From: Verrucomicrobiota bacterium
GTDB lineage: Bacteria > Verrucomicrobiota > Verrucomicrobiia > Chthoniobacterales > SZAS-18
Reading direction: 5' to 3'
Assembly (NCBI GenBank): GCA_018240025.1
Contig: JAFEGM010000082.1
Span: forward strand, 1-64,000
Length of the DNA: 64,000 nt
Below the pieces are notes generated by a model, which was given only the letters and a program-made list of their open reading frames with translations, was not told where the DNA came from and did no database searches. Both the position numbers and the translations under genes were made by a program. Below are positions 23,580 through 49,330 of this stretch, one piece after another. Positions within the stretch are counted from its first letter, which is position 1, and every line of letters begins with the position of its first letter.

Positions 23580-23646
23580 GCCCACCGACGGGCTCTGCTC
23601 CTTTCGCAGCATATCGCGCCCCGCCGCTGTGCGCTTTCCTCGCGGC

Positions 23647-24200
23647 ATGCGTTTGCTTCCTGCTGCTTTCGCCGTCTTCGCCCTGCTTGCCGCACCCGCG
23701 GGGGCTCAGACGATCTACACCGTCGACTTCGACTCCACCGCCGACAGTACGACCACGGCGCCCTTCGTGGGCAGCGGCACGATCGCCATCGGAAATGACC
23801 CGGGAGCCGATGGCACGTTCGCGTACTCGGCGCTCGGAACGGTCACGTTTTCGTTCACGTTTCCCGCCTTGGGGTTGACCTTCACGAACGCGCAGATCAG
23901 CACGCCGACGAATCAGATCCTCTTCCGTTCTCGAACACGAATGCGATCGGCAGTGGGCCCCTCAGCGGGGCCATCGACTTTGGGAATTTCGGCACCGGCC
24001 TGTCGTTTCAACCGCCCGGACCGCCGCCGGGCACCGGGCTGGACCAGTTCGCCGTCCTGACCCCGAGCGAGTTCGTGATCGGCAATTACTACGCCTCCAC
24101 GCCGGTCGCGGCCGTCCCCGAGCCCGGAACTTTCCTCGCCGGCGCCGCCGCTGCCTTCCTGCTGGGCGCGTGCGCGCGCCGGCGCAGGACGGCGAACTGA
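23647..24200 (+). pseudogene. PEP-CTERM exported protein interrupted by a frameshift
   Basis: The first frame gives a signal peptide (MRLLPAAFAVFALLAAPAGAQ) and about 70 residues of a beta-rich extracellular domain (VDFDSTADSTTTAPFVGSGT). Near 23925-23935 the sequence needs a shift of reading frame. The other frame then continues sensibly (AIGSGPLSGAIDFGNFGTGL, then LDQFAVLTPSEFVIGNYY) and ends with a full PEP-CTERM tripartite signal: VPEPGTF, a hydrophobic helix and CARRRRTAN. Both halves are clearly one gene. Either it is a recent pseudogene or there is a base-count error in the assembly. No exosortase is in the window. Confidence 0.7.
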
Positions 24201-24391: not shown

Positions 24392-26014
24392 TCATTGCTC
24401 CGGACGGATCCAACCGCGGAGGAGCCAGGTCCAGGCCGCCACGAGCACGAGCCAGGCGGGGTGCAGCAGGAGGGCGCGGAAATCGGCCAGGAAGTTCGCC
24501 TGCAGCGCCGCGAGCGCCTCCGCTCCGGTCTGGGCGCCGCTGGCCGCCAGGCCTACGGCCAGTTCGCGCGCCACTGCCGCCAGGCCGACCGCTGCCTGCC
24601 AGCCCGCGGCGGCGAAGCCGAGCGACCAGCCGCCGAAGGCGAGCGCACCGAGCGCGAAAACGCCGAGCGCGAGGCCGCAAAAGATGCTCAGGCTCACGAC
24701 GCCGACCGTGATGCCGCCGAGGGCGATAGGCGCCACGGCCGTACCGCCGAAAGCCAGCAGCGGGCTGACCGCGAGATCGCCGACCGCGATCCACCCGACG
24801 GCCGCCCGCTCGCGCCAGGTGCGTTGCGGCGCCAGGTTCCAGGCAAAGGCGAACAACGGGAGGCCCAAGAGCCGGGCACGCGTTTCGTAGCGCCGGCCTT
24901 GCCGGACTGGAGGGACCCCGCGTGAGGCGAGTGCGGCGTCGGTCGTGCCGGTTTGAAGGCGCAGGCGGTCGATCTCGGCCGCCAGGCGCCGATCGAACCA
25001 GAAGATACCGCCCAACAGCAGGGCGAGCCACGCGGTCACGCCGAGGACGATCCAGCCGGCCGCAGGCACATAGAGCCGCCCCGCCGGGATCAAGGCTGCA
25101 GCCAGCCCGAGGCTGAGCACGAGACAGAACGGCAACACCTGGCCGCGGACGCGCCGCAGAATGAGGCGACGCTCCTCCTCCGAGCGCGCCCCCGCCGCCG
25201 CCGCGCGCGTGCCGAACCAGGCGAAGGTCAACCCGATCAGCGGCCCGACGAACGGCGCCAGTCCCACCTTCGCCAGCATTCCCGGGGCCGCCGTGGCGAG
25301 CGGCGGCCCGCTGGTCGCGCCGCTGCTGACGAGTCCGCCACCGATGACCACCGCGGCGCTTGCGCTCGTCGCCGCGACCAGCGGCAACGCCACCATGACC
25401 GCGAGCGTGAACGCTGCGCCCGGTCGGGACCGCGTCAGGCCCGATTCCACCACGCTGGCCAGTTCCGCGCGGAGCAGCGCGCGACCGCGGGAGAGCCGCT
25501 GGCGCACCGTCTCCTCGGAGAGCTCCAACGCTTCCGCGACCTGCGCGGTGGATTGCTCCTGCCGATAAAACAGGATGAGCGGCTCGCGGTATCCGTCGGG
25601 CAGCGCGGCCAGCGTGCGCCAAAGCAAGGCCGCTTCCTCCTCGCTCACCGCCCGCTCCGCGGGGTCGGGCTCGCGCGCGGCCGGCTCAGCCACGTCTTCC
25701 AGCGACGCGGCCGGCCCGCCGCGCCGCTCCTCGCGGCGCGTGGCATTGGCCGAGAGCTTGCGCACGATGCCGCAGAGCCAGGCGCGGAGCTTGTCCGGCT
25801 CGCGCAAATCGTGCAGGCGGCGCCAGGCGGTCACGAAGGTCTCCTGCGCCAGATCCTCCGAGCGGGCCAGGCTCCCGCAGGCACTGTAGGCCAGCGAGCA
25901 GACGAGCGTCTGGTAGCGCTCCACGATGCCCGCAAAGGCCTCGCGGTCGCCCGCGCAGGAGCGCTGCCAGAGCTGGGCATCGGAAGTCACGGAGAGAGGG
26001 GCGAGCGTAGTCAT
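24392..26014 (-). CDS. ECF sigma factor fused to a polytopic membrane domain
   Basis: A 540-residue protein. Residues ~20-92 form sigma region 2 (DREAFAGIVERYQTLVCSLA; DLAQETFVTAW) and ~125-182 region 4 (LPDGYREPLILFYRQEQSTA; LSEETVRQRLSRGRALLR), both intact. After residue 195 come some 340 residues with about eight to ten hydrophobic segments interspersed with Arg-rich loops (EEERRLILRRVRGQ). ECF factors are usually about 190 residues and held by a separate anti-sigma protein; here no anti-sigma gene is adjacent, so the membrane part probably tethers or gates the sigma domain in cis. The signal sensed is unknown. Confidence 0.88.
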   Translation of the reverse strand: MTTLAPLSVTSDAQLWQRSCAGDREAFAGIVERYQTLVCSLAYSACGSLARSEDLAQETFVTAWRRLHDLREPDKLRAWLCGIVRKLSANATRREERRGGPAASLEDVAEPAAREPDPAERAVSEEEAALLWRTLAALPDGYREPLILFYRQEQSTAQVAEALELSEETVRQRLSRGRALLRAELASVVESGLTRSRPGAAFTLAVMVALPLVAATSASAAVVIGGGLVSSGATSGPPLATAAPGMLAKVGLAPFVGPLIGLTFAWFGTRAAAAGARSEEERRLILRRVRGQVLPFCLVLSLGLAAALIPAGRLYVPAAGWIVLGVTAWLALLLGGIFWFDRRLAAEIDRLRLQTGTTDAALASRGVPPVRQGRRYETRARLLGLPLFAFAWNLAPQRTWRERAAVGWIAVGDLAVSPLLAFGGTAVAPIALGGITVGVVSLSIFCGLALGVFALGALAFGGWSLGFAAAGWQAAVGLAAVARELAVGLAASGAQTGAEALAALQANFLADFRALLLHPAWLVLVAAWTWLLRGWIRPEQ

Positions 26015-26120
26015 CGGCGGCAGGTGGCCGCGAGCCGCGAAAACGTGACAGCGTTTCGAAGCTTTTCGACGCTACCGGGGCGCGGGTCGATCTCCGGGGC
26101 TGCGCCGTAAGAGAAAACGG

Positions 26121-26294: not shown

Positions 26295-28190
26295 TTAGCG
26301 CCCGCCGAAACTCCAGGTCGCCCCCGCGAAGAAGGCGCGCCCGGGATTCGGGTAGCGTGGCACTTCCTCGTAGCGGCGGTCGGTCAGGTTCTCGACCCGC
26401 GCGAAGAGGCGCAGCTGGGCCGTGGCCTGCCAGTGGGCCCACACACGCAGCACGGTGTAGTCGGGCACGTCGCTGTTCGGCGCGCCGAAGTTGAGCTCCT
26501 CGCGCGCATTGACGTAGCGCAAATCGAGCCCGACTGCGGCGCGTTTCCGCGGCGTACCGGACTCCGGCAGGAACTGGTACGACGCGCCGGCGGTGAGCGT
26601 GTTGCGGGCGCGGCGCGGCAGGCGGGCGCCGTCGGGCTGGCTGATGTCCGCAGCGCTGGTGCGACGGGCGTCGAGATACGTGTAGGCGGCGCGCAGCTGC
26701 AGGCCGTCGAGCGGCTCCCAGCGCACGAACGACTCCAGCCCCTGCGTGCGGGCGCGGCCGAGATTCAGCGTCTCGAAGAAGTCGTTGAACCCGATGATGT
26801 TGGAGAGGCGATTGTAGAAATAGCTCGCGCCGAAGACGACCCGCCCGCCTGCCAGGCGCTGCTCGAAGCCGGCGTCGAACCCACGGCTCTTCTCCGGATC
26901 GAGCACGTCCGTATTGAACCGAAAGATCTTATCCTGCGGCGAGGGCGGGGCGAAGCCGGTCGCGTAGGAAGTGCGCAGCGTGAGGCCCAGCTTCGCGAAG
27001 ACGTAGCTCCCTGCGACGCGCCAGGTGCCGATGGTGCCGAAGTCGTTGAAATGCTCGACCCGTCCGCCGAGCACGAGCAGCAACCCCGGCAGCGGACGCA
27101 GGCTGGCCTGGGCAAAGCCCGCGTAGCTCTCGGTCACGTCGCGCAGATACGGCTCGCCGAAGCTGGCCGGGTAGAGCGGACGATACTGCTCGGCCTTGGT
27201 GCGGCCGTAGTAGCCGCCGGCCGTGAGCGTGAGCCAGCGGGTCAGCTCGAAGTCGCCCTGCAGATCGGCCTGCGTGCGGCGGAAGACCGCCTTGGTCGGA
27301 TTCGAGCCGAGCAAGGAGTCGATCTGCGGATCGTTCACCTGCTCCTCGCGATCGAGCGTGAAGACCGCGCGCAACTTGATCGCGCTGGTCGTCTGCCATT
27401 CCACATTGGGCGCGAGCAGCCAGCGCTTGGTCAGCAGGTTGTCGGTCGGCGTGGGCGCATTGGTCGGCCCCGGATTGCTCGCATCGTCCCGCGAGAAGGT
27501 GGCCAAGACCCCAAGACGGAAGTTCGGCAGCGCGCGCGGGGACCAGCCAAAATTCCCGAGGAAGCTGGTGGCGCGATACTGGTTGTTGGGCCGGTCGTTG
27601 TCGGTGTCGAGCCGGGCACCCGCGACGAGGAAATCGACCTCGCCCAGCTTGCCGCTGGCCTGGGCGCGCTCGCGGAAGGTACCGAACGAACCGCCCTCGA
27701 ACGAGAAGCTGCCGCGCGGCGCGCCCTGGCCCCGCGACGAGAACAGCTGGATGCTGCCAGCCAGCGCCCGCGGGCCGTAAAGCGTGGATTGCGGGCCGCG
27801 CTGGACCTCGATGCGACCGAGCCCGGTGGTGGCGAGATCGGCGAAGTTGAAGGCGCCGGCGAGGCCCTGGTTGATGGCGATGCCGTCGAGCAGCACCTGG
27901 GTGTGCTCGCTCTTCAGCCCGCGGGTGAAGACGCTGGTGACCTGACCGGGGGTGCCGGTCTGGACGACATCGAGTCCCGGCACGTCGCGCAGGGCGTCGG
28001 CGACGGAGTCGATCTGCCGATTCTCCAGGTCTTCCGCGCGAAGCGTGGTCACGGCGGCGGGGACTTCCTCCTCGGGCAGCGGGAGGCGGGTGGCGGTCAC
28101 GACGACCGGTTTTTCGTCGGCCCGGAGCGGGACGACGCAGGCAAAGACGGCGGCGCCGAGCAGGGCGCGGCCGCGCAGGAATGGGATCAT
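26295..28190 (-). CDS. btuB: TonB-dependent outer-membrane receptor, probable cobalamin (BtuB-like) importer
   Basis: A 631-residue receptor from the ATG at 28190, chosen because the signal peptide starts there (MIPFLRGRALLGAAVFACVV) and because the upstream extension would lie in the riboswitch. Just after cleavage comes a TonB box-like VVVTATRL, then a plug domain (LRDVPGLDVVQTGTPGQVTS; QVLLDGIAIN; IEVQRGPQSTLYG) and a 22-strand-type barrel ending in the aromatic signature TWSFGGR. Size and plug motifs match BtuB. The cobalamin riboswitch in its leader is the main evidence for the substrate. No btuCDF genes are in the window. Confidence 0.9.
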   Translation of the reverse strand: MIPFLRGRALLGAAVFACVVPLRADEKPVVVTATRLPLPEEEVPAAVTTLRAEDLENRQIDSVADALRDVPGLDVVQTGTPGQVTSVFTRGLKSEHTQVLLDGIAINQGLAGAFNFADLATTGLGRIEVQRGPQSTLYGPRALAGSIQLFSSRGQGAPRGSFSFEGGSFGTFRERAQASGKLGEVDFLVAGARLDTDNDRPNNQYRATSFLGNFGWSPRALPNFRLGVLATFSRDDASNPGPTNAPTPTDNLLTKRWLLAPNVEWQTTSAIKLRAVFTLDREEQVNDPQIDSLLGSNPTKAVFRRTQADLQGDFELTRWLTLTAGGYYGRTKAEQYRPLYPASFGEPYLRDVTESYAGFAQASLRPLPGLLLVLGGRVEHFNDFGTIGTWRVAGSYVFAKLGLTLRTSYATGFAPPSPQDKIFRFNTDVLDPEKSRGFDAGFEQRLAGGRVVFGASYFYNRLSNIIGFNDFFETLNLGRARTQGLESFVRWEPLDGLQLRAAYTYLDARRTSAADISQPDGARLPRRARNTLTAGASYQFLPESGTPRKRAAVGLDLRYVNAREELNFGAPNSDVPDYTVLRVWAHWQATAQLRLFARVENLTDRRYEEVPRYPNPGRAFFAGATWSFGGR

Positions 28191-28323
28191 GTAGGTTGGG
28201 TCGGCGGAAAAGCCGCCCGACGACCGCGCGGCGAGGCCGCGAGCCAGCAGGGACAGGACTTCTCCGGTGTTTTCAGGCGAAACAACGTCGGGCCTTCCGC
28301 TTCGGCGGGGGCTCGTGGAGCGC

Positions 28324-28484
28324 GGCTCGGGCAAGTATTCTGACTCCTGGCTTCGCCTTCCCCCGGCCTTCACCGCTCGCCCGCGGTTGGCGGGTTCGCG
28401 ATTGGCTGCTTGCGCATCGGGGGTCGTATCCAGTTACAGCAGCGCGACTGTTCCCGGTTTTCACGGGATTCCATGCGCCGAGCC
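28324..28484 (-). ncRNA. Cobalamin (AdoCbl-class) riboswitch
   Basis: Read on the minus strand, a closing stem GGCTCGG/CCGAGCC (28484-28478 with 28330-28324) encloses the class's conserved blocks: GGAATCCCGTGAAAACCGGG, then AACAG...GCTGTAAC, and the B12 box AAGCCAGGAGTCAGAATACT followed by TGCC (28353-28330). It precedes the TonB receptor start by about 134 bases, leaving room for an expression platform. When cobalamin binds, expression of the importer is expected to fall. In the 28191-28672 gap I see only this riboswitch and the hairpin at 28523-28562. Confidence 0.93.
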
Positions 28485-34541: not shown

Positions 34542-34760
34542 GTTCGAAGCACGAAACTCGAACCGAGCGAAGCGAGATGGCCTCTCAAGCCAAATTGACG
34601 ACAGAGGCAAACTCGAAGGAATGTGAAACTCGAAGTTCGAAGATCCGCCTCCCGGTTCGATGACTCCTGCAAACAGGAGCCCAGATTTCCCGTCGGCGTT
34701 TTCGAACTTCGAACTTCGAACTTCGGACTTCCTTCGAGTTTCGAGTTTCGTTCTTCGAGT
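34542..34760. repeat. Large inverted-repeat element with heptamer arms and central hairpin
   Basis: Left-arm heptamers GTTCGAA, GCACGAA, ACTCGAA (34542-34562), ACTCGAA (34611) and ATGTGAA, ACTCGAA, GTTCGAA (34621-34641) face right-arm heptamers TTCGAAC x3, TTCGGAC (34701-34728) and TTCGAGT x2, TTCGTTC, TTCGAGT (34733-34760). The inner arm edges are symmetric about 34671, exactly where CTCCTG-CAAA-CAGGAG (34664-34679) sits. It fills most of the 34457-34809 divergent gap between infA and the M50 gene, so promoters for both must lie within or beside it. Confidence 0.85.
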
Positions 34761-34809
34761 TTTCCTCCAGGACCCTTGCGGCCCGGCCCCCGCGCCCGGA
34801 ACGTCCGGC

Positions 34810-35892
34810 ATGCGTTGGTCTTTTCCCGTCGCCCGGATCTCGGACATCGAGGTGCGCATTCACCTGACGTTCCTCCTGCTCCCGGCTTTCTTCGGTTTTC
34901 AGGCCTGGCAGACGGGCGGGCCGGCGGGGGCGCTGAATGCGGTCGTCTTCGTGCTGCTGATCTTCCTCTGCGTCCTGTTGCACGAATTCGGCCACGCCTA
35001 CGCCGCGCTGGGCTACGGCATCCGCACGCCGGACATCACACTCCTGCCCATCGGCGGGCTGGCACGCCTCGAGCGCATGCCCGAAAAACCCTCGCAGGAG
35101 TTCGTCATCGCCATCGCCGGGCCGCTCGTGAACGTGGCCATCGCCGGCGCGCTGGCGCTGGCCATGGGCGGACTGCCAGCTTTCCGGCCGGACCGGATTT
35201 TCCTGCCGGATCAGCACCTCCTGCTCCAGTTGTTTAAGGTCAACGTCTCGCTCGTTCTCTTCAATCTCATCCCGGCCTTCCCGATGGACGGTGGACGCAT
35301 TCTCCGCTCGGGCCTGGCCAGCTTCCTGCATTACGGCACCGCCACGCGCATCGCGGCGACCATCGGGCAGTACGCCGCCTTCGTGCTCGGCTTCCTCGGC
35401 GCGGTGAAGGAGAGTCCGATGCTCTTTCTCGTGGCCGTCTTCGTCTATCTGGCGGCCGATCAGGAAGCCAATCTCGCCACCCTGAAGGACTTCGCCAGTT
35501 CGCTGCGGCTGCAGGATTCGATGCTGACCGAATTCCGCTCGCTGCGCGTCGGGGCCACGCTCGGCGAGGCGGTCGACTTGGCGGTGCGCACCTCGCAGAA
35601 CGAATTCCCGGTCATCGAATCCGACGGCCGGGTGCGCGGCCTGCTGACCCGCGGTCGACTCCTCCGCGCCGTGAAGGAGGCCGGCCCGCAGGCTGCCGTG
35701 GCCGACCACATGCACGCAGACATCGAACTGGTGCCCTACTTCGCGCCCTTCTCGGTCGCGTTCGATCGCCTCCAGACCAGCCCCTGCCCGGCGGTGGCCA
35801 TCGTCGACCGCTCCGAGCGCCTCGTCGGCCTGCTCACCGCCGACTCCCTGGAAGACCTCATGACCTTGCGGGAAGCGGCGAAGCCTCGCTGA
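34810..35892 (+). CDS. Site-2-type M50 metalloprotease with CBS domains
   Basis: A 360-residue intramembrane zinc protease. The zinc-binding HEFGH lies at residues 58-62 in the second membrane segment, and the third ligand is in [12 protein letters not shown] (~156-167). About six membrane segments are followed by a C-terminal region (~230-360) with two CBS-like repeats ([40 protein letters not shown]). This is the SpoIVFB-like group III architecture in which CBS domains may sense nucleotides. The substrate is unknown; a membrane-bound anti-sigma or signalling protein is typical. The start at 34810 avoids translating the repeat element. Confidence 0.92.
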
Positions 35893-46486: not shown

Positions 46487-49330
46487 ATGGATCTCCCCAG
46501 CTTTGTCAGCGACCTGGCCCTGAGCCTCGGGGCCGTGTTGCTTGGGCTCTGGCTGCTGCGCACCAGCCTGCTGGCCCGCTCGCTGCGCGCCCTCGTCTTT
46601 CGCCGGCCCGAGCTGCGCCTGCTGGCGCCGGAGGAAGCCCCGCTCTATCTGCGGGAATGGGCCGCCGCCGTCGGTCCCGGATTGCAGGAACTCGGTTTCG
46701 AGGACGACGGCCCGAGCGAGGTCTGGGTCATCACGCTGGCGCCGGAGAAACGCTGGAACTGGCGCCATGAGGTGGCGGGCACGACTGTCACACTCGCCCT
46801 CGAGCCCGGCGCAGGCCAGGTGCCGCTTTGGAGCCTCCGCACCGACCTGACGGACGGATCGGTGGTGGTCACGCTGAATACCGCGCCGACCCGCGACCCA
46901 CTCGAGACGCCAGGCATTCACCTGGAATGCGTGCCGACCGGCGCCTTCGAGCAGGTCTGGACCCGCCACCTCGATCGGGTGCAGGCGCAGGTCGATGCCA
47001 CCGGGAGCGCCCCGCGCCCGCTCGATCGCGCCGCCGCCGCGGCCGCTTTCGCCGACGCCTCGGCGCGCGTCTGGGCGACGGAAGCAGCCGCGCGCGACCG
47101 CTACGAGCAAGTCGGCGAAGACGGCCTTCGCCTGCGCTGGACCTGGCTCTTCCGCCGGGCGGCGCGCGATTTCGTGCAGCGCCAGAAGACGCTCCAAGCC
47201 GCGGTCAAGGCGACTCCGCCGACGGTGGCGCCGAGCTTGTCCGAGCCCGCCCGCCTCGAACTCGACCTGGCGCTGGCCCAGCGGCTCGAAACCATGCGGC
47301 AGGCGCGCCGGCTTTCTCCGCGAGCCCGCCTGCTGGTCAGCGCAGCCTCGCTGGTCCTTTTCCTCGGACTCATGGCGCGGCGAGACAGCCTCGAGTTCGC
47401 GCTCCTCCTGACCGGGGCGCTCGTCTTTCACGAGCTCGGGCATCTCGTGGCGATGCGCCTTTTCGGCTCGCGCGACACATCCCTCCTCTTCATTCCGTTT
47501 CTCGGCGGCGTCGCCCTGCAGAACGACCGCCCGGCCACCAAACCGTGGCAGGAGGTGATCATGCTGCTCGCGGGCCCCGTGCCGGGACTCGTGCTCGGAT
47601 TCGCCCTGCTCGGCGCGCTGCTCGTGCTGCCGGCGGCGGCGCTCCCCAGCTGGTCGTGGATGGCCGTGGCCGTGCTGCTGACGCTGAATGCCTTCAATCT
47701 GCTCCTGCCCATTGCCCCGCTCGACGGCGGTCAATTGCTCCAGACCGCCTTCCTCGGCCGGTTCCCCCGCTTTGCCGCGCTTTTCCGCAGCGCCAGCGGC
47801 CTTGGGCTGATCGCGCTGGCCGCCTACTTCGGCAGCCCGCTCTTCGCCCTGCTGGGCCTCTTCTTCGTCTCGCGCTTGCGTCAGGAATGGCGCACCGCGG
47901 ACGCGCTGCTCGATTTGCGTCGGACCGCTCGCGCGGAAGGCTTCCGCTCGTCCGAGGAGGAACCTTGGCTGCGCCGCGTGCTGTCCCGACTGCACGCAGT
48001 GCCCGCGCTGGCGTCGCAGGACGCAGCGCGCGTCCTGGAGGCCAAACGCCTGACGCATCTGCTGCGCCAGCCCGCGGCGGGCTTTGGAACGATGCTGCTC
48101 GCCGCCGCCGGCTGGAGCCTGCCCTTCTGGCTGCCGTTCGCCGGTTTGCCGCTCTTGAACAGCTGGGCCCTTGCGGAACGCGAACGGGCCACGATCGCCG
48201 CGCAGGCGGCCGGCCTGCCGCGGGAGCGCCAGGTCGAGGCGGCCCTGCGCGACCGCCTGAGCAAACTCGCGCCGGAGGACGACGCCCGGCCCGACTACGT
48301 CGCAGCCAGCGGCCAGCGGGGTCGCGGAGAATCCCAGGTCAGCGGAGTGCTCACCCCGCAGGCCTGGGACGCGCTGGTGCGCGGCTCACAGCGGAAATTC
48401 TGGCCCCGCCCGCCGACGGCTCGCGGCGGGCCCCTCGCCCCCGAGGAGAACCTGGTCGAGCCGGATGCGATCGGCGAACTGCTCGGACGACGCCTCGAAC
48501 AGGCGCTTTCGTCGGATGATCCGGCGCCCCTCGCCGAAGTTTCGCAGACGGCCGCCCGGGTCTTCGCCCAGCTGCGTTCCTCCCCCCGGTTCGACGCGGA
48601 CCGCGCGGTGCCGGAGCTCGTCGGTGCCTGGTGCCGCGGCCTCGAACGCGCCTTGGTCCTGCGGGCTCGCCAGCGAAAGCCCGTGCCGCCGTCGGTCGCT
48701 GGGCTGTTGGTCGGCAGTCTGCCCGCGGACGAAGCCTTGGCGCAGGAGTTGCGAAATGCGCTCGGCCTCAGCTTGGCACATGCCGAAGCCTCGTGGGATC
48801 GGGCGCTGCCGCGCCCTTCTCGCCGATCCGACTGGCGCACCCTCGCGAGCGACGCCTTGGTGGCCCTGTACGAGCCGAGTCTTTTGCGCGAACAGACGGA
48901 GGCGGCCCGTCGCCTGGCCGAGTTTGCGCAAGGCTGGGCCGCGACCCCCGACCCGTGGCTACGGCTGCGCACTTTCCTAAGCCACGGGAAGGAGGATCTC
49001 GCCACGCGACATCTCCGGTATCGTGCCCGTCTTTGGGCCACCGCCGCGGTCGAGCTGGATCTCGCACGGGGTGCTCTTGCCTGGCATGCCAACTGGGTCA
49101 CTTCCGGGTCCCCGCCGGCGAATCTCGAGCAGATGCAGGCGGCCTGGTTCCAACGACCCGCGGAACATCCGCTGGATCGCCGATCGTGGAATCTCGAAGT
49201 CGCCGCCCGCGAGCGCTACCGCTTGGTTCTCGCCGCCCTGCCCCCTTCGCAGCGGCAGTCTGGCGACGTCGAAGTGGAGCCGGACGACTTGACCACCTGG
49301 GAGCTGAGCGACCTCAAGCGCGGACGTTAG
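46487..49330 (+). CDS. Large M50-family membrane protein with long flanking domains
   Basis: A 947-residue protein. An N-terminal membrane segment precedes about 240 residues of soluble, partly helical sequence. A membrane core (~285-470) carries the zinc motif HELGH in VFHELGHLVAM (~317) and the distal motif LPIAPLDGGQ (~410), as in site-2 proteases. A further membrane hairpin (~530-560) and about 380 residues of mostly helical, Arg/Ala-rich sequence follow. Known M50 proteases are about 350-450 residues, so the flanking domains are unusual and I do not recognise them. The substrate is unknown. Confidence 0.72.
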   Translation: MDLPSFVSDLALSLGAVLLGLWLLRTSLLARSLRALVFRRPELRLLAPEEAPLYLREWAAAVGPGLQELGFEDDGPSEVWVITLAPEKRWNWRHEVAGTTVTLALEPGAGQVPLWSLRTDLTDGSVVVTLNTAPTRDPLETPGIHLECVPTGAFEQVWTRHLDRVQAQVDATGSAPRPLDRAAAAAAFADASARVWATEAAARDRYEQVGEDGLRLRWTWLFRRAARDFVQRQKTLQAAVKATPPTVAPSLSEPARLELDLALAQRLETMRQARRLSPRARLLVSAASLVLFLGLMARRDSLEFALLLTGALVFHELGHLVAMRLFGSRDTSLLFIPFLGGVALQNDRPATKPWQEVIMLLAGPVPGLVLGFALLGALLVLPAAALPSWSWMAVAVLLTLNAFNLLLPIAPLDGGQLLQTAFLGRFPRFAALFRSASGLGLIALAAYFGSPLFALLGLFFVSRLRQEWRTADALLDLRRTARAEGFRSSEEEPWLRRVLSRLHAVPALASQDAARVLEAKRLTHLLRQPAAGFGTMLLAAAGWSLPFWLPFAGLPLLNSWALAERERATIAAQAAGLPRERQVEAALRDRLSKLAPEDDARPDYVAASGQRGRGESQVSGVLTPQAWDALVRGSQRKFWPRPPTARGGPLAPEENLVEPDAIGELLGRRLEQALSSDDPAPLAEVSQTAARVFAQLRSSPRFDADRAVPELVGAWCRGLERALVLRARQRKPVPPSVAGLLVGSLPADEALAQELRNALGLSLAHAEASWDRALPRPSRRSDWRTLASDALVALYEPSLLREQTEAARRLAEFAQGWAATPDPWLRLRTFLSHGKEDLATRHLRYRARLWATAAVELDLARGALAWHANWVTSGSPPANLEQMQAAWFQRPAEHPLDRRSWNLEVAARERYRLVLAALPPSQRQSGDVEVEPDDLTTWELSDLKRGR

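Follow-up and report, generated by a model that had tools for sequence, protein, structure and literature searches.

How might an ECF sigma factor be kept silent and set free when it carries its own hydrophobic extension and has no anti-sigma gene beside it? This question is raised by a gene at 24392..26014 (minus strand) of a Verrucomicrobiota contig (JAFEGM010000082.1), of which we analysed a stretch of 64,000 nucleotides, hereafter the window. The gene is a single open frame that starts with ATG and encodes 540 residues, the stop codon being included in the coordinates (ORF check). Its product contains sigma region 2 (residues 30-98; 25721..25927, minus strand; Pfam PF04542, Sigma70_r2, E 1.4e-14) and sigma region 4 (residues 130-181; 25472..25627, minus strand; PF08281, Sigma70_r4_2, E 2.6e-12), both models being covered nearly end to end, and it lacks regions 1.1 and 3, as befits membership of the ECF group. 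Foldseek related the first 190 residues or so to ECF sigma structures (SigW, sigma-E; E about 1e-7 to 1e-9), and sigma structures were the sole matches returned with the whole model. The intact regions 2 and 4 and the hydrophobic extension of about 340 residues behind them, both announced by the original prediction, are therefore confirmed, and past residue 190 or so no Pfam domain was matched. We consider it rather probable (about 60%) that this ECF sigma factor regulates its own gene, is tethered to the membrane, is controlled in cis by its C-terminal module and has an acyltransferase as its target.

The fusion is no artefact, since the genome also encodes a paralogue (G000:C96:53417-54874), which aligns with residues 10-511 of the window protein at 46%, and about 30 independent full-length homologues, recovered by a scan of genome contigs and a phylum search, present the same full architecture. 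Almost all of these homologues belong to Verrucomicrobiota and most are MAGs. The same paralogue and homologues rule out that the fusion arose by frameshift or by the misjoining of a separate membrane gene, the latter named beforehand as an objection that would refute the original prediction.

The topology of the extension differs from the eight to ten membrane segments first proposed. Our prediction upheld the multi-pass character of the extension but not this number, which seems unlikely and reflects an impression given by hydropathy alone: five helices were counted, four ahead of a large repeat tract that AlphaFold2 predicts as strands (a putative beta-solenoid) and one behind it. All lie on the minus strand. 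Predicted TM helix 1 (residues 206-224; 25343..25399), detected by hydropathy, the positive-inside pattern of 22 homologues and the alignment, sits in a segment conserved across all subfamilies (RxxPGxAFTxxVxxALP), and its AlphaFold2 confidence is low. Helices 2 (residues 246-264; 25223..25279), 3 (residues 293-311; 25082..25138) and 4 (residues 322-340; 24995..25051) are predicted by AlphaFold2 together with hydropathy and the positive-inside rule, and helix 5 (residues 514-532; 24419..24475) by hydropathy. Over 22 homologues, the loops after helices 1 to 4 contain 0-2 (out), 4-7 (in), 0-3 (out) and 3-10 (in) K/R residues, respectively, a pattern that would make the sigma domain and the beginning of the repeats cytoplasmic. 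The tail behind helix 5, positively charged in the homologues (summed net charge +86, compared with +4 before the helix; 22 homologues), would likewise be inside. If the sigma domain, the repeat start and this tail are all inside, the repeat domain needs an odd number of crossings. Such a crossing of the bilayer, demanded by the charge pattern, is a puzzle rather than a result; in seven kinases with the same module, the net charge is 8 before and 17 after the helix, a difference too weak to assign a topology.

The repeat domain itself (residues 372-497; 24524..24901, minus strand; recognised by repeat period and AlphaFold2) is about 120 residues long and bears the full signature of what we call the YRS-cap pentad-repeat module: a cap YxSxxxLxGLPLxHI..., then IAxGD and five-residue A-x-G-x-x repeats. 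From about residue 404 to 492 it forms an unbroken hydrophobic tract with glycine at a five-residue period, hydropathy marking in particular residues ~404-470. The repeat unit, deduced from 555 pentads of 33 sequences, is A/S, hydrophobic, G, any, hydrophobic, with charged residues reaching at most 8% at any position. AlphaFold2 models residues 374-492 of the window protein as strands with moderate confidence, the score of this repeat region being only about 56-79, and the same domain of a homologue (L041) as an all-beta solenoid (pLDDT 93.5, pTM 0.80). The domain has no model in Pfam or NCBIfam, and the pentapeptide-repeat family PF00805 was not matched by Pfam in the window protein or in its repeat domain.

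These models must be read alongside the known tendency of AlphaFold2 to build confident false beta-solenoids on near-perfect repeats (PMC11795689). This documented bias, together with the high hydropathy throughout and the lack of a solved counterpart (no Foldseek match below E 0.001 in PDB or BFVD), would fit a bundle of short TM helices, the extension being then eight- to ten-pass and the solenoid an artefact of the method. We regard this explanation as improbable. Glycine recurs with a non-helical period (mean autocorrelation 0.35 at 5 and 0.44 at 10 residues; 23 homologues), Gly-Gly doublets appear about every ten residues, and one to five charged residues in 85 leave almost no polar loops. 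The imperfect, natural character of the repeats and their non-helical period favour a predicted beta fold, short of proof.

A solenoid of this kind could also act without any release of the sigma domain. Hydrophobic residues on all faces of the repeats need lipid or protein partners, and stand-alone solenoid proteins exist, as would suit a bactofilin-like platform for oligomerisation or polymerisation that clusters the sigma factor at the membrane, its activity being governed by assembly. Pfam recognises neither a bactofilin nor a pentapeptide repeat in the domain, and we hold this possibility to be somewhat unlikely. More speculative, and in our opinion doubtful, is the idea that the pentad repeats form a beta-solenoid that lies within the lipid bilayer and spans it, the module being then a membrane sensor that can be plugged into sigma factors, kinases and other regulators; if true, it would represent a membrane-protein architecture that is neither a helix bundle nor a beta-barrel.

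The module is not restricted to sigma factors. A domain profile search found it in 33 of 289 Verrucomicrobiota genomes; the phylum of a Planctomycetaceae record gave 15 of 199, that of a record titled Acidobacteria 16 of 149, that of a Microbacterium 3 of 150 and Pseudomonadota 0 of 150, the last an empty result obtained without a positive control. The module was not found among the viral contigs and phages searched. The architectures comprise ECF sigma, TM helices, solenoid and a TM helix; kinase and solenoid (zinc ribbon and TM helices optional); zinc ribbon and solenoid; and small stand-alone proteins. An HMM built from non-sigma members only recovered each of the 23 sigma-solenoid proteins in the test set (E 5e-33 to 3e-14), including the window protein at E 9e-15, the best shuffled sequences scoring about 0.5, and the non-repeat cap alone retrieved the window protein (E 8.9e-6). 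Therefore, the similarity is not merely one of composition, and the predicted solenoid is a portable signalling module, because it is also borne by kinases, placed behind zinc ribbons or encoded alone in other bacteria.

Among the Ser/Thr kinases, the module lies behind the kinase domain (L130, L131, L134, L137, L142, L151, L154-L159, L167-L170); many of these have an N-terminal zinc ribbon, and TM helices either follow the module or are absent. The occurrence in Bacillota is limited to one Subdoligranulum plasmid (L118 583-2971), in which the module follows the apparent C-terminal half of a helix-turn-helix regulator, whose gene start seems to have been cut off by a recombinase gene directly upstream. 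This architecture is tentative, since Pfam does not recognise the helix-turn-helix half.

The reverse situation is found within the sigma family. In our tree, its sigma domains form one group apart from other ECF factors (98/96), and within this group about ten changes are required to account for the distribution of the solenoid, well-supported branches imposing no fewer than four of these. Other members have different multi-pass or soluble C-termini. A constant sigma core with an exchanged C-terminus is as expected for a putative input module. The loci with the same core and quite different C-terminal modules (L026, L027, L031-L037, L040, L042, L043) encode other multi-pass domains, soluble repeats, or one TM helix and a soluble domain, and most of them keep the same upstream motif (see below).

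The genomic context offers no separate regulator. There is no anti-sigma gene among the neighbours tested, and an all-against-all comparison of 20 homologous loci revealed no gene recurring widely beside the sigma gene, in line with the claim that no anti-sigma gene is adjacent. The extension itself matched no anti-sigma family in Pfam or in a further domain search, which counts against the main reading. A small TPR-like repeat protein with a single TM segment at its N-terminus (L013:8110-8982, L015:2412-3275, L018:7611-8501, L021:4848-5786) was rejected as a conserved partner, as it adjoins the sigma gene in three loci and is merely near it in a fourth. In the window, a TonB-dependent receptor gene (26295-28373, minus strand) shares the strand of the sigma gene, lies immediately upstream of it and is not conserved at the other loci; this receptor and a neighbouring prolyl oligopeptidase are unaccounted for by the main reading. 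On the other side (23629-24200, plus strand), a secreted protein has its PEP-CTERM-like tail (PEPGTFLAGAAAAFLLGACARRRR) in another frame than its N-terminal part, an apparent frameshift that is either real or an assembly error. With one conserved polypeptide, a positive-inside pattern over 22 homologues and no partner gene, the proposal of a membrane-tethered sigma factor under cis control is well supported as a sequence-based prediction.

The same context bears on how the sigma domain would be activated. The window does encode two M50 proteases (both PF02163), at 34660-35892, with a CBS domain, and at 46487-49330, as had been noticed. A further RseP-like M50 is encoded elsewhere in the genome. 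Regulated intramembrane proteolysis, in which a site-1 cut would be followed by the freeing of the sigma domain by an M50 protease, thus has candidate enzymes, and it has a precedent in IutY (ECF243), processed by Prc and RseP (PMC8999054). The two window genes are, however, 9 and 20 kb from the sigma gene, and M50 genes do not recur beside it in other genomes (20 homologous loci). The module of the window protein comprises several TM helices, Pfam reveals no FecR/STN-like periplasmic domain in it, and the same solenoid serves kinases, for which release is unneeded. We know of no use of such multi-pass substrates by site-2 proteases. Activation by proteolysis therefore appears unlikely, and the specific suggestion that the two window proteases release the sigma factor is unsupported, given their distance, their lack of recurrence beside sigma genes and the RseP-like M50 elsewhere. 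Since the module is also found on kinases and stand-alone proteins, a conformational change or assembly would be more economical.

Further indications come from the DNA upstream of the gene. A family motif, TGTCACCT-N13/14-RCCAC, with (G/A)CCACT as its second block (the site can also be written TGTCAC-N15/16-RCCAC), precedes 31 of the 37 sigma genes, the window's included, at a fixed distance from the start codon, and it is found in only 0.4% of shuffles and 1% of random windows of the same loci. It accompanies the sigma family across several phyla. The window copy, TGTCACGT-N14-GCCAC (26024..26050, minus strand), would be an autoregulatory ECF promoter 36 bp upstream of the ATG; nine nucleotides separate its -10-like element from this codon, so that a leaderless or near-leaderless mRNA is probable. 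The motif is a previously undescribed, promoter-like one: its two blocks with 16-17 bp spacing have the layout of a promoter in front of the family's own genes (31/37, with the window's), recognition being putative, whereas generic ECF motifs (GGAAC...CGTC) are absent from the family's upstream regions. The -10-like half, RCCAC, departs from the CGTC usual for ECF promoters, and a dyad TCAC-N18-CAC is present in 19 of the 37 upstream regions (0.7 expected). The first of these features could point to the operator of a separate regulator instead of a promoter of the window sigma factor. This alternative has a low probability in our estimation, because the two-block layout is that of ECF promoters, such as the ECF41 site TGTCACA-N16-CGTC (PMC3426412), and because the motif tracks the sigma family across phyla at its fixed distance from the start.

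In the whole 6.3-Mb genome, the pattern has three matches: the window gene, its paralogue and, at C51:15074-15100, a site 37 bp upstream of an Acyl_transf_3 gene. A backward-pattern control yielded one match in the same genome, and a single genomic match is for this reason weak on its own; in four relatives, the motif matches were equalled by the controls (four matches), which counts against the main reading. Eight other genomes encode relatives of this Acyl_transf_3 protein (about 45% identity) beside the sigma gene (L022, L024, L038, L120, L122, L128, L129 and L090, the last from the same-genus genome G002, where the relative is partial). The acyltransferase link consists of eight adjacencies in related genomes and one genomic motif match, two independent lines that therefore converge on one target. 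A CIA30-like gene adjoins the sigma gene in four other genomes, followed in three of the four by an Acyl_transf_3 gene, and in three genomes a motif copy lies ahead of the CIA30 gene. Together, this DNA signature suggests that the window sigma factor switches on its own gene and a cell-envelope acyltransferase.

The mechanism that we favour would work as follows. A single polypeptide would present a cytoplasmic N-terminal ECF sigma domain tethered by a C-terminal input module, made of four TM helices, the hydrophobic pentad-repeat domain (predicted beta-solenoid) and one further TM helix. At rest, this module most likely keeps the sigma domain inactive, the module being the likely inhibitor because there is no anti-sigma partner. 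A change in the membrane or envelope may then be sensed by the TM-solenoid module through a conformational change, oligomerisation or the binding of a lipid or partner. The freed sigma domain would bind RNA polymerase at promoters of the family type described above, driving its own gene in a positive feedback, the membrane O-acyltransferase (Acyl_transf_3) and, in some relatives, the CIA30-like secreted protein. The promoter motif and the linked acyltransferase supply a reporter and a target, with which the signal and the activation of an orphan membrane sigma factor become testable.

To our knowledge, few sigma factors with fused membrane parts have been described, most of which combine a recognisable anti-sigma part with one or two TM helices; a literature search of partial coverage found no Verrucomicrobia ECF factors with TM extensions. 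A canonical ECF sigma factor has its cognate anti-sigma gene adjacent, in contrast to the window locus. A close likeness is with IutY (ECF243) of Pseudomonas putida, in which the sigma factor and a membrane-borne regulatory part also share one polypeptide. IutY has a single TM helix, carries a fused FecR-like anti-sigma part and undergoes cleavage by Prc and RseP (PMC8999054), whereas the window protein has no such Pfam domain and four helices before the repeats; IutY works in cell-surface signalling with a TonB receptor, and the receptor gene upstream of the window gene is not conserved across loci. The actinobacterial ECF48, ECF52 and ECF53 (e.g., SCO4117) similarly bear a C-terminal membrane extension, but theirs combines one or two TM helices with a zinc-finger anti-sigma domain (PMC8999054), while the window protein has five predicted helices and no zinc-finger family in domain searches. 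ECF41 shares with the window family a C-terminal extension without a separate anti-sigma factor and the -35 block TGTCAC; it differs by its -10 block, CGTC instead of RCCAC (PMC3426412), and by its soluble SnoaL-like extension, absent from the window protein (Pfam), which has a membrane module. Regarding the repeats, pentapeptide-repeat proteins (PF00805) and bactofilins resemble the module by their five-residue repeats or a predicted hydrophobic beta-solenoid, but the PF00805 consensus is A(D/N)LXX rather than A-hydrophobic-G-x-hydrophobic, and neither Pfam nor Foldseek gave a significant match. The Pkn-type Ser/Thr kinases of Verrucomicrobiota and Planctomycetota carry the same YRS-cap and repeat module C-terminally, with a kinase and not a sigma factor as output. 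In comparison with these systems, a conserved sigma core and its promoter are here joined to C-terminal input modules that can be exchanged; among these is a hydrophobic repeat module, so far uncatalogued, that kinases and stand-alone proteins also use.
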